Of a DNA stretch of 64,000 nt, positions 4,928 through 62,565 are shown in pieces (within the stretch, counting starts at the first letter, position 1; the number at the start of each line of letters is the position of its first letter). The notes beneath the pieces are model-generated. The model was not told where the DNA came from. It ran no database searches and was given only the letters and a program-made list of their open reading frames with translations. The stretch comes from Bacteroidetes bacterium 2013_40CM_41_45 (lineage in GTDB: Bacteria; Bacteroidota; Bacteroidia; AKYH767-A; 2013-40CM-41-45), in the NCBI GenBank assembly GCA_002215675.1, contig NGFH01000003.1, positions 1 through 64,000 on the forward strand, read 5' to 3'. The position numbers were made by a program, and so were the translations under genes.

Positions 4928-6865
4928 ATGCTAATACCTAAAGATTTAGTTATAGAAGCAAGACAAAAATTTGGTGCTAATGCGGCAGGAATTATAGCCA
5001 AAGATTTAAACATCAAAGATTATGATAATGAAAATTTAAAGGGGTGCTGTCCTTTTCATAATGAGGATACACCATCTTTTGTTTGGTATGAAAAAGGTGA
5101 TTATTTTAAATGTTTTGGTTGTCAAAAAACATATAATATTATTGACCATTATATGAATTTTGATAAACTTTCTTATGTTGATTCTGTTGAAAAATTATTT
5201 AAAGAATCACAAACATCTTTTAGATTTTCTGAAAAGAATATAAAAAAGAAGGATTATCAATATCCAAAATATGAAATAGATGAAAATGAAAAATCATATG
5301 ATAGAACCAGTGTTGAAAAATATCTTGCAACAAGAGGAATATCAAAAAATACATTAGATAAGTTTGATATATTGTCGGATAAAAAAGGTAATATCACATA
5401 TAATTATAGAAATACAAATGGTGTTCTTACAATGGTGAGATACCGTCTTGGAAGAATTGCTGAAAAAACAGATTCATCAAAATTTTGGTCACAACCAAAT
5501 GCAGATACGACTCCATTACTTTTTGGAATGAATAACACTAGTCCGCTTTCAACACTTGTTTTGACTGAAGGTGAATTGGATGCGTTATCTGTTTATGAAG
5601 CCGGGCATCAAAATTCTGTTTCAGTTCCTTTTGGTGCAAATAATTATTCTTGGATTGAAGAAAATTTTGATTATTTACAACAATTTGAAACCATAATTGT
5701 TTGGTCAGATAATGATGAACCCGGAATAAAAATGCGTAAGGAAGTTTGTTCTCGGCTAGGTTCTGATAAACAAAAAGTTTTATTTGTCAATCTTCCTCTT
5801 GAAATTGAAAATGAAAAAATAAAAGATATTAATCAAGTTCTAGTAAAATTTGGAAAAGAAAAAGTTTTAGAATTTATTAATAATGCCGAAGAACAAAAGA
5901 TAGAAGGAATATTAGACCTTTCAGAAGCAGAAGATTTTGACCTTGAAAAAAGAGAAGGTCTTTATTCTGGAATAAAAGAAATTGATGATATGATTTATAA
6001 ATTTTTCTTTGGCAATGTTGTTTCTGTTACTGGTTTTGCCGGAGGAGGAAAATCAAGTCTTGTTAATCAATTGTTTATCAATGAAGCATTACATCAAGGA
6101 TATGATGTAACTGTATTTTCTGGTGAACTTCCTTCTGATATGTTACGTCAATGGGTTGAAATCAATATGGCTGGAAGAGAACATATTGAAGAACACAAAA
6201 ATAAATTTAAAAGAATTATTAAAATTGATACCATTAAAAAAATGAAAGACTGGTATAAGGGCAGAATAAATTATTATGAAGCAGAAGATAATCATATTGA
6301 TGCTGTTTTAGGCAAGGCCGAAGAAACCATTAGAAAAAAGGGCGTTAAAGTTTTAGTGCTTGATAATTTAGCCACATTGGGACTAGGTGAAGACGATAAC
6401 AATACTTATGCAAAACAAAAACAAGCAATTGTAAAAATAAAGAATTTTGCAAATAAATTTAATATTCTAGTTGTTCTTGTTGTTCATCCTCGTAAACCAG
6501 CAAGTGGAATTACAAGTGTTCAATCCGGTTATGAAATGTCAGGAAGCGGTGATTTATTCAACTTAGTTCAATATAATTTTTCTGTCAAAAGAATAACAAA
6601 AAAAGAAAAAGAAGGTAAGAAAAAAAGAGGTGGGGGATGGGAAATAGAACCCTGTTTATATGATGTAAGAATAGAATTTTTCAAAAATCGTATAACAGGA
6701 CAACTTGGTGATTGCTTTTTATATTTTGATTATCCAAGTTATCGCTTTTATATTACACCAGAACAACTTTGGAAAAGATTTTCTTGGGACAAAAATACTT
6801 TGCCATTGCGAACAGATGACCCAAATGAGAAATATAGAGAAATGCCAGAAGAGTTTAAAACATAA
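4928..6865 (+). CDS. Bifunctional DNA primase-helicase (T7 gp4-like)
   Basis: Synthesises RNA primers and unwinds DNA at the fork. Order of domains: CHC2 zinc finger (C40/C41, H44 and C62/C65 in CCPFH...CFGC), TOPRIM domain (LTEGELDA with E214; WSDND with D261), then a DnaB-type helicase with Walker A GFAGGGKSS near 369-377 and a later VLDNLATLG Walker B region. The fused layout and 645-residue length match T7 gp4-like proteins, slightly longer. SD TTGGAG. It abuts the next gene with a 1-nt overlap. Confidence 0.93.
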   Translation: MLIPKDLVIEARQKFGANAAGIIAKDLNIKDYDNENLKGCCPFHNEDTPSFVWYEKGDYFKCFGCQKTYNIIDHYMNFDKLSYVDSVEKLFKESQTSFRFSEKNIKKKDYQYPKYEIDENEKSYDRTSVEKYLATRGISKNTLDKFDILSDKKGNITYNYRNTNGVLTMVRYRLGRIAEKTDSSKFWSQPNADTTPLLFGMNNTSPLSTLVLTEGELDALSVYEAGHQNSVSVPFGANNYSWIEENFDYLQQFETIIVWSDNDEPGIKMRKEVCSRLGSDKQKVLFVNLPLEIENEKIKDINQVLVKFGKEKVLEFINNAEEQKIEGILDLSEAEDFDLEKREGLYSGIKEIDDMIYKFFFGNVVSVTGFAGGGKSSLVNQLFINEALHQGYDVTVFSGELPSDMLRQWVEINMAGREHIEEHKNKFKRIIKIDTIKKMKDWYKGRINYYEAEDNHIDAVLGKAEETIRKKGVKVLVLDNLATLGLGEDDNNTYAKQKQAIVKIKNFANKFNILVVLVVHPRKPASGITSVQSGYEMSGSGDLFNLVQYNFSVKRITKKEKEGKKKRGGGWEIEPCLYDVRIEFFKNRITGQLGDCFLYFDYPSYRFYITPEQLWKRFSWDKNTLPLRTDDPNEKYREMPEEFKT

Positions 6866-7671
6866 TGTCTGATTATGATTTTATTATTGATAATATGAAA
6901 TTTAGTTACTCCAACATAAGCACATTTGAAACATGTGCTTATGCTTGGAAATTAACGTATATTGATACGTTAAAAAGAGAGCCAAATTTTTTTGCTGAAT
7001 TTGGAACTTTATGTCATGATATTCTGGAAAAATATTTTAAGGGTGAATTAGATTTATTTAATTTGCCGAATTATTATGAAAAACATTTTTATGAAGTTGT
7101 TCAATCAATTTCTCTTTCCGGAACAATGACTCAAAATTATTATGATGCTGGCTATGATTTTTTTACTAATATTGATATAAATCCTGATGATTTTGAAATA
7201 TTGGAATCAGAATTAAAAACAAGTTCGATTTGGAATGGAATAGAACTTGTTGTTAAACCAGATATTGTTTTGAAAGAAAAATCAACCGGCAAAATAATTC
7301 TTATGGATTATAAAACATCCATTATCAAGAAAAATAAAAATGGGTCAATAGCAAAATCTGATATTGATAAACTAAATGGATATAAAAAACAATTATTTTT
7401 ATATGCTTTCTTTTTATCTCAAAATCAAAAAACTAAAATAGAAGAAATTCGACTATGGTTTATTCGCAATAATACATTTGAGATATTTCAATATACAGAA
7501 AAAGAAGCAATTGAAACTTTAAATTGGTTTATGAAAATTGTGGCTAAAATAAAAGAAGAAGAAAAATTTATTGCCAATATAAGCAATCCATTTTTTTGCA
7601 ATAATTTATGTGGAGTTCGTATGTCCTGTGAATTCAGGATACAAAATCCAGAAAAAGCATCAGAATCTTAG
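6865..7671 (+). CDS. Cas4/RecB-like PD-(D/E)XK exonuclease with Fe-S cysteines
   Basis: Probable DNA end-processing nuclease of 268 residues. The nuclease motif is D133 (KPDIV) and D148-Y-K150 (LMDYKTS). A cysteine near the N-terminus (STFETC) and a C-terminal group (CNNLCGVRMSC) match the four-cysteine iron-sulphur layout of Cas4 and AddB nucleases. Translationally coupled to the primase-helicase. Its final codons form the left arm of a terminator, so it closes the 2.1-7.7 kb operon. No CRISPR array is seen, so a recombination role is likelier than spacer capture. Confidence 0.85.
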   Translation: MSDYDFIIDNMKFSYSNISTFETCAYAWKLTYIDTLKREPNFFAEFGTLCHDILEKYFKGELDLFNLPNYYEKHFYEVVQSISLSGTMTQNYYDAGYDFFTNIDINPDDFEILESELKTSSIWNGIELVVKPDIVLKEKSTGKIILMDYKTSIIKKNKNGSIAKSDIDKLNGYKKQLFLYAFFLSQNQKTKIEEIRLWFIRNNTFEIFQYTEKEAIETLNWFMKIVAKIKEEEKFIANISNPFFCNNLCGVRMSCEFRIQNPEKASES

Positions 7672-7688
7672 GATTTTGGTGCTTTTTT
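7652..7688 (+). terminator. Intrinsic terminator overlapping a stop codon
   Basis: An 11-bp stem GCATCAGAATC/GATTTTGGTGC with loop TTAG is followed by six T. The loop contains the TAG stop of the Cas4-like gene, and an A-run precedes the stem. It ends the first early operon directly before a new promoter. Confidence 0.85.
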
Positions 7689-7692
7689 GTTA

Positions 7693-7721
7693 TTGACAAA
7701 TTGAGTTAAATGTGGTATTAT
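7693..7721 (+). promoter_or_regulatory. Sigma-70 promoter, extended -10
   Basis: TTGACA (7693-7698), 17-bp spacer, TGG then TATTAT (7716-7721). The expected start is near 7728-7732, exactly where the structured RNA begins. Confidence 0.88.
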
Positions 7722-7731
7722 TATCTTATAT

Positions 7732-7900
7732 GAGCGTCATGGAGTTTGAGATACTCCATATGCAAAGATTTTCGTGATGACATAGAGTCTCCCGGTAGGG
7801 CATCAAGTCTTGATGAATCGGCGGGTAAGACTATGCACTCATCAATGCAAATAACCTCTCAAAATGACAATGAGAGCATAGATGGAATTCCTGTGACGCT
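7732..7900 (+). ncRNA. Multibranched structured RNA or leader, unknown class
   Basis: Closing stem P1 is AGCGTCA (7733-7739) with TGACGCT (7894-7900). P2 is ATGGAGT/ACTCCAT (7739-7745, 7753-7759). P3 is a long arm: TGATGACATAG (7775-7785) with CTATG (7831-7835) and TCATCA (7839-7844), then TCT/AGA, CCCG/CGGG, and a tip CATCAA-GTC-TTGATG. P4 is CTCTCA/TGAGAG (7856-7861, 7871-7876). It has its own promoter, and a start codon lies 31 nt after P1. It looks like a riboswitch-sized leader or stable ncRNA. I could not match any known riboswitch core, including cobalamin, SAM-I, T-box or M-box. Confidence 0.75.
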
Positions 7901-7930
7901 TGTTTACCATATTTATATTTGGAGAATAAA

Positions 7931-8161
7931 ATGAATAAAACTGTTCAAAAAATTCTTGCCCTTTCTCATGTTGAAGCCGTTGATAAAGAAGAAGAAGGAT
8001 ATTTTGTTTATTTTAAAAATGGCTATTGTTGGCAAGGCGACCCTCATGGTAGTATTCATTTCGTTATGGAAGAAACAGCGACAATAGCATTAAGAGAAGC
8101 CAAACGTTTTCGTATTTGTACTAAAGATTGTTGTCCACCAGAAACAGCAGAGGAGAAATGA
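7931..8161 (+). CDS. Small unknown protein, first gene after the structured RNA
   Basis: 76 residues, no family recognised. Middle part EGYFVYFKNGYCWQGDPHG is beta-rich; the C-terminus carries CTKDCCPPETAEE. ATG at 7931 is chosen because GGAGA sits 7 nt upstream; an earlier in-frame TTG at 7919 has no ribosome site. Any regulation by the leader RNA would act on this gene first. Confidence 0.75.
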   Translation: MNKTVQKILALSHVEAVDKEEEGYFVYFKNGYCWQGDPHGSIHFVMEETATIALREAKRFRICTKDCCPPETAEEK

Positions 8162-8163
8162 AA

Positions 8164-8436
8164 ATGAATCTCAACGTTGGAGATAAGGTTGAACTATTGA
8201 AAACAATGCTTGGTAATGATTCTGGCACAGTTGGAATTGTTTTTTATAAATATGATGGTGGGGGTGTTCAAATTATTTTTCCCAATGGACAATATGATGG
8301 ATTTAGTAAAAATGAACAATATAATTATTTAGAATTTATAGAACATGTTTATAAATATGAAAATTATCTATTTGAAAATGTAGTTCAAGTATCAATAGAT
8401 TTTGAAAAAGGATATTGGAGATTTGATAAGCCATGA
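8164..8436 (+). CDS. Small unknown protein, SH3-like N-terminus
   Basis: 90 residues. The N-terminus (LNVGDKVELLKTMLGNDSGTVGIVF) has the pattern of a small beta-barrel, as in KOW/SH3-like domains, followed by a helical tail. ATG 8164 is preferred over 8158 because GAGGAG at 8150-8155 is better spaced. It follows the preceding stop closely and overlaps the next gene by 4 nt. Confidence 0.7.
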   Translation: MNLNVGDKVELLKTMLGNDSGTVGIVFYKYDGGGVQIIFPNGQYDGFSKNEQYNYLEFIEHVYKYENYLFENVVQVSIDFEKGYWRFDKP

Positions 8437-8705
8437 AAACAATTAAAGAAATTATAGAATTAACAAAACAATATAAAAAAATATTTCAAGATAAATTTGA
8501 AAAAGAAAATTTTGATTTATTTAAAGAAATTGAAGAACAAATTATCAACGAAGCAAAACAAGGTAGCGGTCATTTATTGATTTATAAAAGATATTTTGAT
8601 TCGTATGATAATTTGAGTATTTATGATTTAGAAACATATTATAAAAATCAAGGATATTCAACACGTATTACTGATGATACTTTTCAGATATATTGGTTTG
8701 AATAA
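8433..8705 (+). CDS. Unknown protein, 90 aa
   Basis: Helical N-terminal half (IKEIIELTKQYKKIFQDKF) and a C-terminal YSTRITDDTFQIYWFE. No family recognised. ATGA overlap with the preceding stop indicates coupled translation. Confidence 0.7.
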   Translation: MKTIKEIIELTKQYKKIFQDKFEKENFDLFKEIEEQIINEAKQGSGHLLIYKRYFDSYDNLSIYDLETYYKNQGYSTRITDDTFQIYWFE

Positions 8706-8731
8706 AACAATGATTTCATAAAGGAAAATAA

Positions 8732-8905
8732 ATGACATATTTAATTGATGACCTTGTAAAAACTAACAAACAAATAGATGGAAAGTGGGTGATTGCACGC
8801 CCATTGCTATCATATGATTTATTAAATCGAATAGTTGATTGCTGGCTTGTATTAATTGGAAAAGCCGATGCAGTAATTTATATTAGTGGAAAGAAAAATA
8901 AATGA
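8732..8905 (+). CDS. Unknown protein, 57 aa
   Basis: ATG follows AAGGAAAATAA. The protein begins MTYLIDDLVKTNKQ and continues with GKWVIARPLLSYDLLNR, a pattern I associate with small conserved phage proteins of unknown role. Its stop overlaps the ATG of the Thg1 gene. Confidence 0.65.
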   Translation: MTYLIDDLVKTNKQIDGKWVIARPLLSYDLLNRIVDCWLVLIGKADAVIYISGKKNK

Positions 8906-9624
8906 ATGATGAACTTGGAACACGTATGAAAGAATTTTATGAAAATAGAAGTCAATCATATCTTGCACGTAGAATACCAGCCATTATAAGAATTGACGGA
9001 AAAGCGTTCCATACTTTTACAAATAAATTTACAAAACCATTTGATAATGTTATGATTAAATCCATGCAATTAACAGCTAAAAAATTATGCGCTCAAATTC
9101 AAGGTGCTAAAATTGCATATACTCAAAGTGATGAAATTAGTCTTTTATTAACTGATTGGGATAATTTAAAAACCGATGCATGGTTTGATTATAATATTCA
9201 AAAAATTACAAGTGTTTCTGCAAGTATGACAACACTATATTTTAATAATATTTTTGCAGAAATTTGTACGGTTGAACAAAGCGATAAGATTGATACAGCC
9301 TTATTTGACGCAAGAGTCTTTTCAATTCCAAAAGAAGATGTGAATAATTATTTCTGGTGGAGACAAATTGATTGTATTAGAAACTCAATTCAAATGCTGG
9401 CACAATCTAATTTTAGTCATAAAGAATTGCAAGGAAAAAATCAAGACGAATTGAAATCAATGTTATCAGAAAAGAATATTGAATTTGATAATATGAAAAT
9501 TCATTTGCAACGAGGTTCTTCTGTTGTCAAACAATTGACAGAATTTGGTGAAAATAGATGGACAATTGATGAAGAAATTCCTTTGTTCAAAGATGAAAAA
9601 TATTATATTGAAAGGTACTTATAA
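8902..9624 (+). CDS. tRNA-His guanylyltransferase family (Thg1-like) protein
   Basis: 3'-5' nucleotide-adding enzyme that acts on tRNA 5' ends. The palm motifs are intact: RIDGKAFHTFT with metal ligand D32, and YTQSDEISLLL with D77. 240 residues, full length for the family. Eukaryotic Thg1 adds G-1 to tRNA-His; bacterial and phage Thg1-like proteins mostly repair truncated tRNA 5' ends. The phage tRNA-His already encodes G-1, so repair is the likelier job here. Coupled to the gene before it; the next gene starts directly after its stop. Confidence 0.93.
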   Translation: MNDELGTRMKEFYENRSQSYLARRIPAIIRIDGKAFHTFTNKFTKPFDNVMIKSMQLTAKKLCAQIQGAKIAYTQSDEISLLLTDWDNLKTDAWFDYNIQKITSVSASMTTLYFNNIFAEICTVEQSDKIDTALFDARVFSIPKEDVNNYFWWRQIDCIRNSIQMLAQSNFSHKELQGKNQDELKSMLSEKNIEFDNMKIHLQRGSSVVKQLTEFGENRWTIDEEIPLFKDEKYYIERYL

Positions 9625-10023
9625 ATGAAAGATATTGGGCAATATAGAATTAATTTAATTTGGTGGCCGTTTTTTTATAATGAAGAATATGATGATAAAT
9701 TAGATTTTATTATTCCAAAAATTCAATTTCATAATTATAAAAATAAGCCATGTGATACATGCTGGAATTATGATTGGGATTTTACATTTATTTATTTAAC
9801 TGTTATGAAAAAACAAAAACGTGGTTCTGTTTATAAGCTTATTGAATCTGTTTGGAAATCAAATAATGATAAAGGTGATTATACTCATAACAGAATTATT
9901 ATTCCTCATGATATGTTTGCCAAATGGATTTGGGAACAAAGAAATATTAATAAATATTATACTTCAAATTATTGGGGAATAAGAGTTGTTTCAGGTGATG
10001 TTCGGGAAATTATTTTTGAATAG
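9625..10023 (+). CDS. Unknown protein, 132 aa
   Basis: Rich in Trp and Tyr, with IPHDMFAKWIWEQRNINKYY and a C-terminal strand-rich end. No motif recognised. Starts immediately after Thg1 with no gap, so it may be functionally linked. Confidence 0.7.
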   Translation: MKDIGQYRINLIWWPFFYNEEYDDKLDFIIPKIQFHNYKNKPCDTCWNYDWDFTFIYLTVMKKQKRGSVYKLIESVWKSNNDKGDYTHNRIIIPHDMFAKWIWEQRNINKYYTSNYWGIRVVSGDVREIIFE

Positions 10024-10032
10024 GAGAAATAT

Positions 10033-10329
10033 ATGAAAAGTTATAATGGTTTCTATAATGTAAATAAAATAAAATTCAATATATTTTGTATTTTTGGATT
10101 TCATCAATGGTGGTGGACTAGAGGAATGGATGATAAGCAAGAAACAAGATGTGCCGTTAAATGTGATAAATGTAATGAAATAAGAATGCTTTCTCCGAAA
10201 AATTCGGATATGCACGATATGAAAGAAATTAGAAAAACAATTAATTTATCATCTTGGGAACCAGTATATTTTAATTGGAAACCATTTTCTTTTCATATTA
10301 GCGGAAATAAAATTAGTTCACTTGATTGA
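10033..10329 (+). CDS. Unknown protein with a CxxC pair
   Basis: 98 residues. Contains a hydrophobic FNIFCIFGFHQWWW stretch then CAVKCDKC, a possible half zinc knuckle. SD AGGAG. No family recognised. Confidence 0.65.
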   Translation: MKSYNGFYNVNKIKFNIFCIFGFHQWWWTRGMDDKQETRCAVKCDKCNEIRMLSPKNSDMHDMKEIRKTINLSSWEPVYFNWKPFSFHISGNKISSLD

Positions 10330-10348
10330 TAGAACAGGAGTTTTATAA

Positions 10349-10597
10349 ATGGAAGAAAAAAGAACACGAATTATTGAGAAATTAAAAAATGATGATATTA
10401 AACAAGGAATAAAAACTTGGATTGTTGTTCATACTAATTACGGTGGATATACAGAAGAAGAATTAGAAATACAATTAGGCAATGATGATGTTCTTATTAT
10501 TCGAGATGGAAATAACTGGATATATTTGAGCGAAGAACAAAAAAATATTTTAATAGATTTTTTGATTGGGCCAAATAAATCTATGACTATTGATTGA
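10349..10597 (+). CDS. Unknown protein, 82 aa
   Basis: Begins MEEKRTRIIEKLKNDDIKQG and ends with an acidic helix (LSEEQKNILIDFLIG). SD AGGAG. No family recognised. Confidence 0.65.
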   Translation: MEEKRTRIIEKLKNDDIKQGIKTWIVVHTNYGGYTEEELEIQLGNDDVLIIRDGNNWIYLSEEQKNILIDFLIGPNKSMTID

Positions 10598-10609
10598 TGG
10601 AGATATTTT

Positions 10610-10846
10610 ATGTCTTATGAAAAATATGATATAGATGATACAGATTATAATGGTCTTAAAATAGCAGAAATTTTTGCTTTGGCTTTTGAATTGGGAATGA
10701 TTTTTACTTGCATTAATTTTAAATTAAGAGATGAAATAATCTTTAGTTCTACAAATAAAAGAAACATAATTGGTTATTGTAATTTTAAAAAAATTCAATA
10801 TGAAATTCGTGACCATGATGATTTTCCTACTCTTGTCCTGAAATAA
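10610..10846 (+). CDS. Unknown protein, 78 aa
   Basis: Small acidic protein with a central hydrophobic helix (LKIAEIFALAFELGMIF). No family recognised. Last gene before the promoter at 10853. Confidence 0.6.
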   Translation: MSYEKYDIDDTDYNGLKIAEIFALAFELGMIFTCINFKLRDEIIFSSTNKRNIIGYCNFKKIQYEIRDHDDFPTLVLK

Positions 10847-10852
10847 TGGGTA

Positions 10853-10881
10853 TTGACAAAACAACTGGTTTATAGTATAAT
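10853..10881 (+). promoter_or_regulatory. Sigma-70 promoter
   Basis: TTGACA (10853-10858), 17-bp spacer, TATAAT (10876-10881), a perfect consensus. It starts the transcript that includes the membrane protein and the PARP gene, with TTAGGAG just downstream. Confidence 0.92.
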
Positions 10882-10902
10882 GAACAGATTAGGAGAAAAC
10901 AT

Positions 10903-11109
10903 ATGGAAATATTTAGTCTATTTATTGGTGGTTTCATAGGTTTGGTAATTGCATGTTTGATTGTTGCCATTCTATCAACTATTGATTACATTCTTTGGAA
11001 AGAATATTATAATTTATATAAATCTATTTATGGATTATATTCTATTTTAACTGTTTTTCCATTTGGATTTTATATGTATATCAGATTGAAAATTAATAAG
11101 GATATATAA
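10903..11109 (+). CDS. Small membrane protein upstream of PARP
   Basis: 68 residues with one long N-terminal transmembrane helix (LFIGGFIGLVIACLIVAIL) and a second hydrophobic segment near the C-terminus. First gene after a consensus promoter; its stop lies 2 nt before the WGR-PARP start. The two may act together, but nothing in the protein proves it. Confidence 0.7.
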   Translation: MEIFSLFIGGFIGLVIACLIVAILSTIDYILWKEYYNLYKSIYGLYSILTVFPFGFYMYIRLKINKDI

Positions 11110-11111
11110 AT

Positions 11112-12308
11112 ATGCAACCATTATATCTGTTGAAAATTGAAGTAGATGGAAATGCAAATAAATATTATCGTATGATTCCCAATGGAGATTTATTTACTGC
11201 CGAATGGGGCAGAGTGGGTTCTAATTCTCAAACTATGGATTATTCAATTAATGATTGGGATAAAAAGTTACACGAGAAATTAAGAAAAGGATATGTTGAC
11301 CAAACTCATCTAGTATCTGAAATCACATCTAATTCTAAATCAAGAGAATATTCTGATATAAAAAACAAATCAATTGCAACTATTGTTCAAAGATTACAAT
11401 CTATGGCAAAAATAGCCATTGAAGAAAATTATACAATTTCATCCAGTAATGTTACTCAAAAAATGATTGATGAAGCACAAGCATTAATTAATAATCGTTT
11501 TTCTTTGGATTCCAATGTTGATTATTTTAATGAACAATTGATTCAATTATTTAGAATTATCCCAAGAAAAATGAAAAAAGTTTCTGATAATATTTCTCAA
11601 TCTAAAAAAGATTTTGGAATTATTATTCAAAGAGAACAAGATTTGCTTGACACAATGAAGGGTCAGGTAATTCAACAATCTGTTTTGAATGCCGATGATA
11701 ATATTGATAATGACAAGCAAACAATTCTTGATGTATTAGATTTACAATTTTCCGAAATAAATAAGACAGAAGAAAAACAAATTAAATCACATCTTGGTTC
11801 TATTGATAATAAATTTTATCAAGCTTGGAAGGTTGTCAATAATAAAACTCAAAATATATTTGACAAATTTATAAAACAAAATAATATCAATGAAAAAAAA
11901 TTACTTTTTCATGGTTCAAAAAATGAGAATTATTGGAGTATCATAAATAGCGGATTGATTTTACGACCAAATGCAGTTATTACCGGAAAGATGTGGGGTT
12001 TGGGAATATATTTTGCGTCTGCGGCAGTAAAAAGTTTAAATTATAGTTCTTTGAAAGGAAGTTATTGGACTGGTGGAACATCTAATTCTGGATTTTTATC
12101 TATATTTGATGTTGCATATGGAAATCCATATAATGTTTATAATTTTGATAGTAAATATTATGAATTAGATTATAATAAATTACAAAAATTTTCACCAAAT
12201 GCAAATTGTATACATGCAAGAGCAGATAGGGGAATGTTGAAAGCCGATGAAATTGTGATATATAAAGAAGAACAATGTACTATAAAATATTTAGTGGAAT
12301 TGAGATGA
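11112..12308 (+). CDS. WGR-domain PARP-like ADP-ribosyltransferase
   Basis: Predicted to transfer ADP-ribose from NAD+ to protein or nucleic acid. The N-terminal 75 residues form a WGR domain (AEWGRVG) as in PARP1-3, followed by a helical stretch of about 110 residues similar in place to the PARP regulatory domain. The catalytic domain has the full H-Y-E triad: H267 (LLFHGS), Y300 (GLGIYFAS) and E380 (KADEIVIY), and ends IKYLVELR as PARP domains do. Zinc fingers and BRCT are absent. No macrodomain partner is seen nearby. It differs from T4 Alt/ModA, which are R-S-E enzymes. Confidence 0.9.
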   Translation: MQPLYLLKIEVDGNANKYYRMIPNGDLFTAEWGRVGSNSQTMDYSINDWDKKLHEKLRKGYVDQTHLVSEITSNSKSREYSDIKNKSIATIVQRLQSMAKIAIEENYTISSSNVTQKMIDEAQALINNRFSLDSNVDYFNEQLIQLFRIIPRKMKKVSDNISQSKKDFGIIIQREQDLLDTMKGQVIQQSVLNADDNIDNDKQTILDVLDLQFSEINKTEEKQIKSHLGSIDNKFYQAWKVVNNKTQNIFDKFIKQNNINEKKLLFHGSKNENYWSIINSGLILRPNAVITGKMWGLGIYFASAAVKSLNYSSLKGSYWTGGTSNSGFLSIFDVAYGNPYNVYNFDSKYYELDYNKLQKFSPNANCIHARADRGMLKADEIVIYKEEQCTIKYLVELR

Positions 12309-61512: not shown

Positions 61513-61536
61513 AACTCTCTTTATTACAAGAGAGTT
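61513..61536 (-). terminator. Terminator after the homing endonuclease gene
   Basis: AACTCTCTT and AAGAGAGTT form a 9-bp stem around a 6-nt loop, followed on the minus strand by TTTGTTT. It overlaps the stop of the gene at 61524-62444. Confidence 0.75.
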
Positions 61537-62444
61537 GTTTTTAATATATTTTCTATATTATCAAAATTCCAATACGGAATCCTAATAAGTTTTATATCAT
61601 TATCTTTACAATATTTTGTTTTTATTTTATCATTTTTCTTTGTTTTTTTAAATTCTATTGGTTTATTGAATTTATCTTTATAATGAAGAATTCCATCATA
61701 TTCTATTAAAATATTTAATTTTGAAATATAAAAATCAAATGAAAGAATGCGAATATTTTTGCAATTTTTAAAACCTTTATATTGTGTTTCAAATTTTATG
61801 TTATTATTTAATAAATATTCTGATATTCTTTTTTCACCTTTTGATGAAGCACAATTTGGACAATTTTTTCCAGAAGTTCTATTGGAAATTTTACATATCC
61901 ATTTATATCCACAATCTTTGCAAATCCAATTTTTATATTTATGTGAACCTATTGTAAAATCCTTTGGAATTCCAGTATTTTTATCATAATTCCATTCAGA
62001 AGAAATTTCTGGAAATTTTATTTCCAAATTATTATGATTTCCATTTATTCTCCATAAAGTTTTACATTTACATAAACCTCTTCCTGAACGAATATAATCA
62101 AAACATATGTAAAATTCTTTTTTACAATTATTGCATAAAAATTTTAAATTCTTTTTTTCTGTAGAAATATATTCTCCAGAAATATATGTTATAAGAATAT
62201 TATTATTTTTTATATATAGTAAAACATTATATAAAGAATAAGGATTATATTTTGCAAACTCATATAATTTACAATTTCTTTTTATTTGAGTTTTAAAATT
62301 GGTAAATGTTGTACTATATTTATATCCATATTTATCTATAATATTTAAATAATCTTTTGTTGTATTATATTTTTTATCAATCAAAAAATAATATTTATTT
62401 TTTTCTATGATTGATTTTACTTCTTGATATGAAAATTTTCCCAT
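61524..62444 (-). CDS. Zinc-ribbon homing endonuclease-like protein (Vsr/EDxHD type)
   Basis: 306 residues. Two treble-clef or zinc segments: FLCNNCKKEFYICF, then the DUF4379-like EISSEWNYDKNTGIPKDF and CKDCGYKW...CPNCASSKG. The C-terminal 100 residues have the Vsr-like endonuclease pattern GEKRISEYL, FDFYI and IEYDGILHY. Phage genes of this layout are free-standing homing endonucleases related to I-Bth0305I. It has its own promoter and lies just downstream of the intron-containing gene. Confidence 0.8.
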   Translation of the reverse strand: MGKFSYQEVKSIIEKNKYYFLIDKKYNTTKDYLNIIDKYGYKYSTTFTNFKTQIKRNCKLYEFAKYNPYSLYNVLLYIKNNNILITYISGEYISTEKKNLKFLCNNCKKEFYICFDYIRSGRGLCKCKTLWRINGNHNNLEIKFPEISSEWNYDKNTGIPKDFTIGSHKYKNWICKDCGYKWICKISNRTSGKNCPNCASSKGEKRISEYLLNNNIKFETQYKGFKNCKNIRILSFDFYISKLNILIEYDGILHYKDKFNKPIEFKKTKKNDKIKTKYCKDNDIKLIRIPYWNFDNIENILKTTLL

Positions 62445-62479
62445 ATATCATCTCCTATAATGATTCCTAAAAATAAATT

Positions 62480-62530
62480 GACGGCAGGACATTTAGGAAA
62501 TGTCTTTTCAGTTCTAGTTACCTAGCCGTC
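62480..62530 (-). ncRNA. Structured 5' leader of the endonuclease transcript
   Basis: On the minus strand, GACGGC (62530-62525) pairs with GCCGTC (62485-62480). Inside are hairpins CTAG-GTAA-CTAG and GACATTT-CCT-AAATGTC (with a 3-nt tip), making a three-way junction. The predicted transcription start is within a base or two of the outer stem. The class is unknown to me. It may protect the mRNA or control the endonuclease. Confidence 0.6.
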
Positions 62531-62536
62531 AAAAAT

Positions 62537-62565
62537 ATTATACCACAAAATCTTTATTTTGTCAA
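62537..62565 (-). promoter_or_regulatory. Sigma-70 promoter (minus strand)
   Basis: TTGACA (62565-62560), 17-bp spacer ending TGG, TATAAT (62542-62537): perfect -35 and -10 hexamers with an extended -10. It drives the endonuclease gene separately from the late operon. Confidence 0.92.

Follow-up and report, generated by a model that had tools for sequence, protein, structure and literature searches.

A GC-rich segment that lies directly behind a promoter in a phage genome raises the question of what its transcript is: the leader of the genes that follow, an RNA with a function of its own, or no RNA element at all. We addressed this question in a window of 64,000 bases, the whole stretch of DNA analysed, which comprises bases 1–64000 of contig C4 (147,646 bases) in a 3.4-Mb assembly of 11 contigs.

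The phage and its assembly

Contig C4 is a large phage, since it carries genes for a DnaE-type polymerase, a primase-helicase, an exonuclease, a ribonucleotide reductase and a ThyX-type thymidylate synthase together with 27 tRNA genes (ARAGORN; 9 + 18 in two runs). The IMG/VR record IMGVR_UViG_3300026320_000001 (147,693 bases) is the identical phage, with 100% identity across the 14,862 bases compared. One and the same phage combines a tRNA-His guanylyltransferase (8902–9624), a WGR-PARP protein (11112–12308) and a tRNA set that includes tRNA-His at 1221. A tandem 18-bp repeat at positions 1–99 of the window recurs at the contig end (~147,560–147,646) and apparently spans the circular join. 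The GC skew of C4 has its minimum at 93,695 and its maximum at 147,496, and a 557-nt stretch without called genes at 93622–94178, outside the window, which contains GC-rich palindromes and the skew minimum, is a possible replication or control region.

The phage and its bin probably do not belong together: either the contig was assigned to the wrong bin or the host of the phage is a different organism. Among ORFs that start with ATG and span 150 aa or more, 58 of 92 in the phage have a Shine-Dalgarno-like motif, compared with 0 of 30 in two 20-kb stretches from other contigs of the assembly. In those 40 kb the pattern TTGACA-16/18-TANNNT has a single match, versus 41 in the 147.6-kb phage. A Bacteroidota-type promoter motif, however, is itself found 11 times in this AT-rich genome, which makes the promoter count on its own weak evidence on the host. 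The 16S of the assembly, judged by eye, we take to be Bacteroidota-like. Given the probable mismatch between phage and bin, the assembly says nothing on the defences of the true host.

Promoter, fold and coding content of the leader

The features of the locus, numbered by position in the window, are as follows.

7652–7687, plus strand: intrinsic terminator that closes the upstream replication unit and coincides in part with the 3′ end of the exonuclease gene
7693–7721, plus strand: phage-class promoter TTGACA-17-TATTAT with an extended −10 (TGTGG), 11 of 12 consensus bases
7728, plus strand: predicted transcription start, from promoter spacing
7733–7739, plus strand: 5′ strand of stem P1 (AGCGUCA), a perfect 7 bp with pair probabilities of 0.95–1.0
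7740–7758, plus strand: P2 hairpin (7740–7745 with 7753–7758), an alternative to extension of P1
7746–7934, plus strand: 62-codon frame with a TTG start and a coding score of 0.003 bits per codon
7775–7844, plus strand: P3 composite arm with a 6x6 internal loop (7795–7800/7816–7821) and a terminal hairpin (7801–7815)
7856–7876, plus strand: P4 hairpin, four of five pairs at 0.89–0.96 and the fifth at 0.26
7894–7900, plus strand: 3′ strand of P1 (UGACGCU), pairing with 7733–7739
7900–7929, plus strand: weak hairpin that includes the Shine-Dalgarno sequence and reaches into the outer edge of P1; a speculative expression platform
7921–7924, plus strand: Shine-Dalgarno sequence GGAG, 6 nt before the ATG at 7931
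7931–8161, plus strand: opening gene of the unit (76 aa), with no relative found beyond this phage
8164–10846, plus strand: rest of the likely unit, small genes of unassigned function and the tRNA-His guanylyltransferase gene (8902–9624)

A preliminary description of this DNA had placed a near-consensus promoter directly after a terminator, and both elements held up. The terminator has a 16-bp stem whose 3′ side is T-rich; at −17.4 kcal/mol, it was matched in stability by 0 of 500 shuffles. The −35 element begins five bases past it. The promoter is one of 18 strict matches to TTGAC-N13-T[AG]TG[GA]TA-N3-T in the contig and scores 28.9 bits by a matrix built from all 18 sites, its own included; sites of at least 13 bits number 27 in the contig versus 0 in one mononucleotide-shuffled strand. 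The predicted leader measures 203 nt and has the lowest folding energy of the 22 leaders listed, one of which is longer (212 nt, at 108641).

Folding energy provides good, not overwhelming, evidence for the predicted structure. The minimum free energy of the leader is −52.3 kcal/mol (z −2.4), a value as low as which was obtained in 14 of 1000 shuffles and, separately, in 6 of 200, and the P3 arm alone was equalled by 36 of 1000 shuffles. Among 4916 windows of 180 nt across the contig, two on the plus strand and eight on the minus strand fold as well, and 59 have a GC content as high; segment 7728–7905 has a GC content of 0.42 compared with 0.285 genome-wide.

The perfect closing stem proposed for this RNA was recovered at exactly 7733–7739/7894–7900. 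The 5′ strand of P1 lies 5 nt from the start predicted by promoter spacing, which makes P1 a stable stem near the transcript 5′ end as so placed; together with its outward and inward extension, it found no equal with a 5′ arm near the start in 200 dinucleotide shuffles (p = 0.005, the floor). The three internal arms that had also been proposed fared unevenly, with P4 and the two ends of P3 well predicted and P2 disfavoured at a probability of 0.05–0.11 in the full-length ensemble. P2 is present at all seven shorter transcript lengths folded (40–165 nt), and its low probability at full length arises because P1 can be extended by pairings 7741–7745/7887–7891 and 7755–7763/7876–7886. The two folds compete and differ by ~1.7 kcal/mol in constrained ensemble energy, so the three-arm picture is one of two alternatives. 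Within P3, predicted pair probabilities are 0.55–0.95 in the outer helix, 0.39–0.67 in the middle, 0.98–0.99 for CCCG/CGGG and 0.55–1.0 in the terminal hairpin. P1 and P4 are robust in the predicted fold, as are the CCCG/CGGG pairing and most of the terminal hairpin within P3; the middle of P3 is less certain.

The RNA matches no recognised class, as had been suspected: an Rfam search of 7600–8000, even at E 10, gave eight matches, every one ending at or before 7710 and none overlapping the RNA, and at gathering threshold the whole window yielded tRNAs only. Neither ARAGORN nor Rfam identified a tRNA or tmRNA at the leader. A tRNA-like autoregulator was considered in view of the guanylyltransferase in the unit and the 7-bp P1; blastn found no similarity between the RNA and the phage tRNAs. 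We rejected 7746–7934 as a protein-coding frame, its near-zero coding score contrasting with 0.20–0.46 bits per codon in five neighbouring small genes (a score this low or lower is seen in 10 of 145 small called genes) and tblastn against phages at E 1 returning zero matches. A 15-codon frame from an ATG at 7730, two bases past the predicted start, is probably due to chance. The leader is most likely non-coding.

Searches for relatives and comparison with other leaders

The sole other copy of the RNA that we found belongs to the same phage and is identical, which leaves one sequence for covariation, so covariation says nothing on the fold. A blastn search of 50,697 phage records at E 10 returned short matches in 449, none covering 80% of the query; the 20 records listed show at most 14% coverage and E values of 3 or worse throughout, and we take the matches as chance. 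We then used two structure models, R1 for the three-arm fold (from the single sequence) and R2 for the minimum-energy fold. R1 gave four other matches in 87 loci (E 0.81–8.6, two inside the window itself), none a divergent homologue; the best of them, in L086 (18.8 bits), sits in an open frame and was rejected. In 30 related phage records R1 gave one match at E 0.36 and no homologue, and R2, run on the same 87 loci and 30 records, returned the minus strand of the window itself and two matches at E 0.59–0.69. Among 395 genomes of the class, R1 found its own sequence and one 25-bit match that lacks P3 and whose E value of 0.06 per genome amounts to chance in 395; among 395 genomes of the phylum it found its own sequence only (both draws include G000 and may overlap). 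Pattern scans of IMG/VR for the P3 internal loop and the P3 base found the same phage only, and a P3-loop scan of genome contigs gave eight exact matches, approximately the chance estimate (8), with R1 there scoring one match at 9 bits.

An alignment-based scan gave 79 primase-helicase loci, including that of the same phage, and the order primase, exonuclease, DnaE was seen in 17 loci (L003, L004 and L022 added from other searches); the remaining loci have a different gene order or lack one of the genes in the stretch compared. The exonuclease and DnaE genes lie at most 149 bp apart in 14 of these 17 loci (L003 and L026 being one phage) and 817, 1222 and 2526 bp apart in the other three, the last being L024 with a partial DnaE match. 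The corresponding distance in C4 is 13.3 kb, so by gene order the RNA and its operon look like part of an accessory insertion. L024, the closest relative by primase identity (51%), has a same-class promoter at the corresponding place, behind which come an inverted repeat and a small gene; no comparable RNA is present.

We compared the leader with others behind the same promoter class. Eight of the 18 strict sites lie 18–34 nt before a gene, seven have leaders of 56–203 nt, and three, with no gene within reach, stand before tRNA genes; 12 of the 22 listed leaders are 15–34 nt long. One promoter class in one phage thus serves both short plain leaders and long folded ones. A matrix scan of C4 and loci L024–L093 located 32 distinct sites that a gene follows. 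Leaders of at least 30 scored nt occur at 17 of them, and a 5′-proximal stem better than 95% of shuffles was found in 5 of these 17 leaders from the phage and its relatives, including 4 of 7 in C4 (the leaders of the 7693 promoter, 62565, 110627 and 122520). The 62565 leader, on the minus strand, can be closed at its start by an 8-bp stem (TTGACGGC/GCCGTCAA) with two hairpins within. This closed fold is the minimum-energy one if the transcript gains one T (4 of 500 shuffles as low), and from the exact start first assumed a different fold wins. In this locus (61524–62565 of the window, minus strand) the gene behind the promoter and leader is homing-endonuclease-like.

Relatives of the phage also place GC-rich segments behind such promoters. 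A conserved non-tRNA segment common to L025:638–761 and L026:4942–5063 (84% identical across 124 nt) immediately follows a phage-class promoter and stands just upstream of tRNA-Met. It matched nothing in Rfam at gathering threshold, and L114, from the same sample as L025, holds a further copy. L024:1126–1270, behind such a promoter, can be closed by ACTAACCCT/AGGGTTAGT around three small arms. Folds as low occurred in 20 (L025), 214 (L026) and 42 (L024) of 500 shuffles, so these segments are not clearly structured by energy. The L025/L026 segment was rejected as a relative of the 7733–7900 RNA, as blastn and nhmmer found no similarity; what the GC-rich segments of the relatives have in common with this RNA is their place behind the promoter and not their sequence. 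At C4 24228 and 122520, L024:7784 and L027:2665, inverted repeats with T-rich ends overlap the promoter or directly follow it, as though a terminator guarding against read-through had been joined to the promoter that follows it. These cases weaken the idea that promoter-proximal stems are a general rule, the L024, L027, 24228 and 122520 stems being inverted repeats overlapping the promoter or start.

Candidate roles of the leader RNA

The 7733–7900 segment is most likely a promoter-driven, structured, non-coding leader RNA, orphan to one phage. The reading we favor, at a probability of roughly 0.45, is a 5′ leader of a phage operon mRNA that acts in cis by protecting the 5′ end, possibly with a mild effect on translation. 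Transcription would begin near 7728 at the phage-class promoter, the first ~175 nt would fold into a rod or a multibranched structure that P1 closes within a few nt of the 5′ end, and the mRNA would continue into the small accessory genes and the tRNA-His guanylyltransferase. The closed 5′ end would shield the transcript from 5′-end-dependent decay, and the P1-closed fold would insulate the ribosome site from upstream sequence; a mild translational effect may accompany this. We infer protection, any translational effect, the start site and co-transcription with the gene.

We read the segment as a 5′ leader because there is no evident terminator before the gene and P1 ends 20 nt from the Shine-Dalgarno sequence. 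Inspection by eye of the stretch from 7900 to the Shine-Dalgarno sequence and the gene showed no stem accompanied by a T-run. A consensus terminator scanner likewise reported none between the RNA and the gene, a weak silence, as it returned zero sites across 6000–11000 and missed the real 7652–7687 terminator too. The next near-consensus promoter after the unit is at 10853, and the leader is presumably co-transcribed with the downstream genes through 10846, which begin, in line with the preliminary description, with small genes of no known function (7931–8161 and onward). Counting against 5′ protection, 12 of the 17 scored leaders have no significant 5′ stem and the 122520 stem is an inverted repeat overlapping its promoter, so the class of 5′-stem leaders is loose. 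In addition, 170 nt of elaborate GC-rich fold exceeds what 5′ protection needs, for which a simple hairpin is enough, and this suggests something more.

Leaders of this type have precedents in ompA, papA and aprE mRNAs, which are stabilised by 5′-terminal stem-loops according to titles in the reference list of a review (PMC3997798). As in those leaders, the stem here closes a few nt from the predicted start and is followed by a linker and a Shine-Dalgarno sequence; unlike them, the phage RNA is far larger and has an internal composite arm, and its stabilising effect is a prediction.

A possible though doubtful alternative is that processing of the leader releases an independent, trans-acting phage RNA, obscure in the manner of T4 RNAC and RNAD or of abundant phage RNAs near tRNA genes. 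The RNA is long for a leader, is GC-rich and has its own promoter, and L025 and L026 carry a different conserved GC-rich segment behind the same promoter class before tRNA-Met. Published work fits this reading, in that the role of T4 RNAC and RNAD is given as unknown (PMC3014915) and phage K is stated to express noncoding RNAs, one with its own early promoter (PMC9241854). Against it, neither inspection by eye nor the scanner revealed a 3′ end signal before the gene, the Shine-Dalgarno sequence and start codon lie within 31 nt of P1, and the RNA is not in a tRNA cluster, the nearest tRNA in the window ending at 2135. RNAC/RNAD, GOLLD and ROOL share with this RNA a phage-borne location and an unclear function, and they differ in adjoining tRNA genes, the present RNA also having no Rfam match. 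GOLLD and ROOL are much larger.

It is unlikely that the leader is a ligand- or protein-sensing translational switch operating through the choice between P2 and P1 extension and through pairing near the Shine-Dalgarno sequence. The two folds are nearly isoenergetic, and in the predicted transcript the Shine-Dalgarno sequence is paired at 0.76–0.97, partly with the first codons and partly in hairpin 7900–7929, which overlaps the outer edge of P1 and is predicted to be favoured when the P1 5′ arm is blocked. Blocking, however, neither simply hides nor frees the Shine-Dalgarno sequence, the pairing of its four bases moving in mixed directions (0.76 to 1.00, 0.96 to 0.99, 0.78 to 0.01 and 0.97 to 0.89). 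The hairpin itself is not significant (−4.7 kcal/mol, 37 of 500 shuffles as stable), and with no homologues found there is no conserved core. Shine-Dalgarno pairing is best regarded as a lead for translational control, not evidence, and nothing found supports the riboswitch suggested in the preliminary description, or assigns the RNA to any other functional class. Phage precedents for a switch include the manA and wcaG structured RNAs of T4-like cyanophages, as stated in one report (PMC2864571), and the operator RNAs of T4 genes 32 and 43, as covered in another (PMC3014915). The cyanophage RNAs, which are in Rfam, are likewise structured RNAs of large phages with a proposed cis action; the 7733–7900 RNA differs in matching no Rfam family. 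T4 leaders (genes e, soc, 49 and I-TevI, and the operators of 32 and 43) similarly place phage RNA structure near a ribosome-binding site. According to a review (PMC3014915), these T4 structures either bind a known protein or bury the start codon or Shine-Dalgarno sequence, in contrast to the RNA here, which has no known binding protein and a Shine-Dalgarno hairpin that is not significant. The same 2010 review records no riboswitch or trans-acting regulatory RNA functionally characterised in T4 to that date (PMC3014915).

Quite unlikely, too, is a new class of RNA, in which P1 and three arms would form a switchable or trans-acting element controlling the operon with the tRNA-His guanylyltransferase; its analogues in relatives, before tRNA-Met in L025/L026 and in L024, would be unrelated in sequence. 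We consider it improbable that the segment is a DNA-level element (repressor palindromes, a replication start or a recombination site) that merely resembles RNA: the two strands both fold well (−52.3 and −49.9 kcal/mol), but the segment lies downstream of a strong promoter, several of its pairs are G-U on the plus strand only, and it is away from both turning points of the GC skew, on which ground a replication-origin reading was dropped. An anti-defence RNA decoy such as an RNA anti-CRISPR, also raised in the preliminary description, is highly improbable and nothing was found in its support beyond the RNA being phage-borne and promoter-driven, since 170 nt is unlike a solitary CRISPR repeat, the binned assembly has no Cas1 match (0/1), though its organism is probably not the host, and the ten proteins behind the RNA gave no convincing PADLOC hit (three at E 0.003–0.008, taken as chance).

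Structured phage leaders are a known kind, and the 7733–7900 RNA, which we favor as a cis-acting 5′ leader, is a further, orphan example. Should the new-class reading prove true, this phage lineage would repeatedly install structured RNAs behind one promoter class. The locus offers a compact, promoter-driven candidate RNA in a tRNA-rich phage that is easy to probe.
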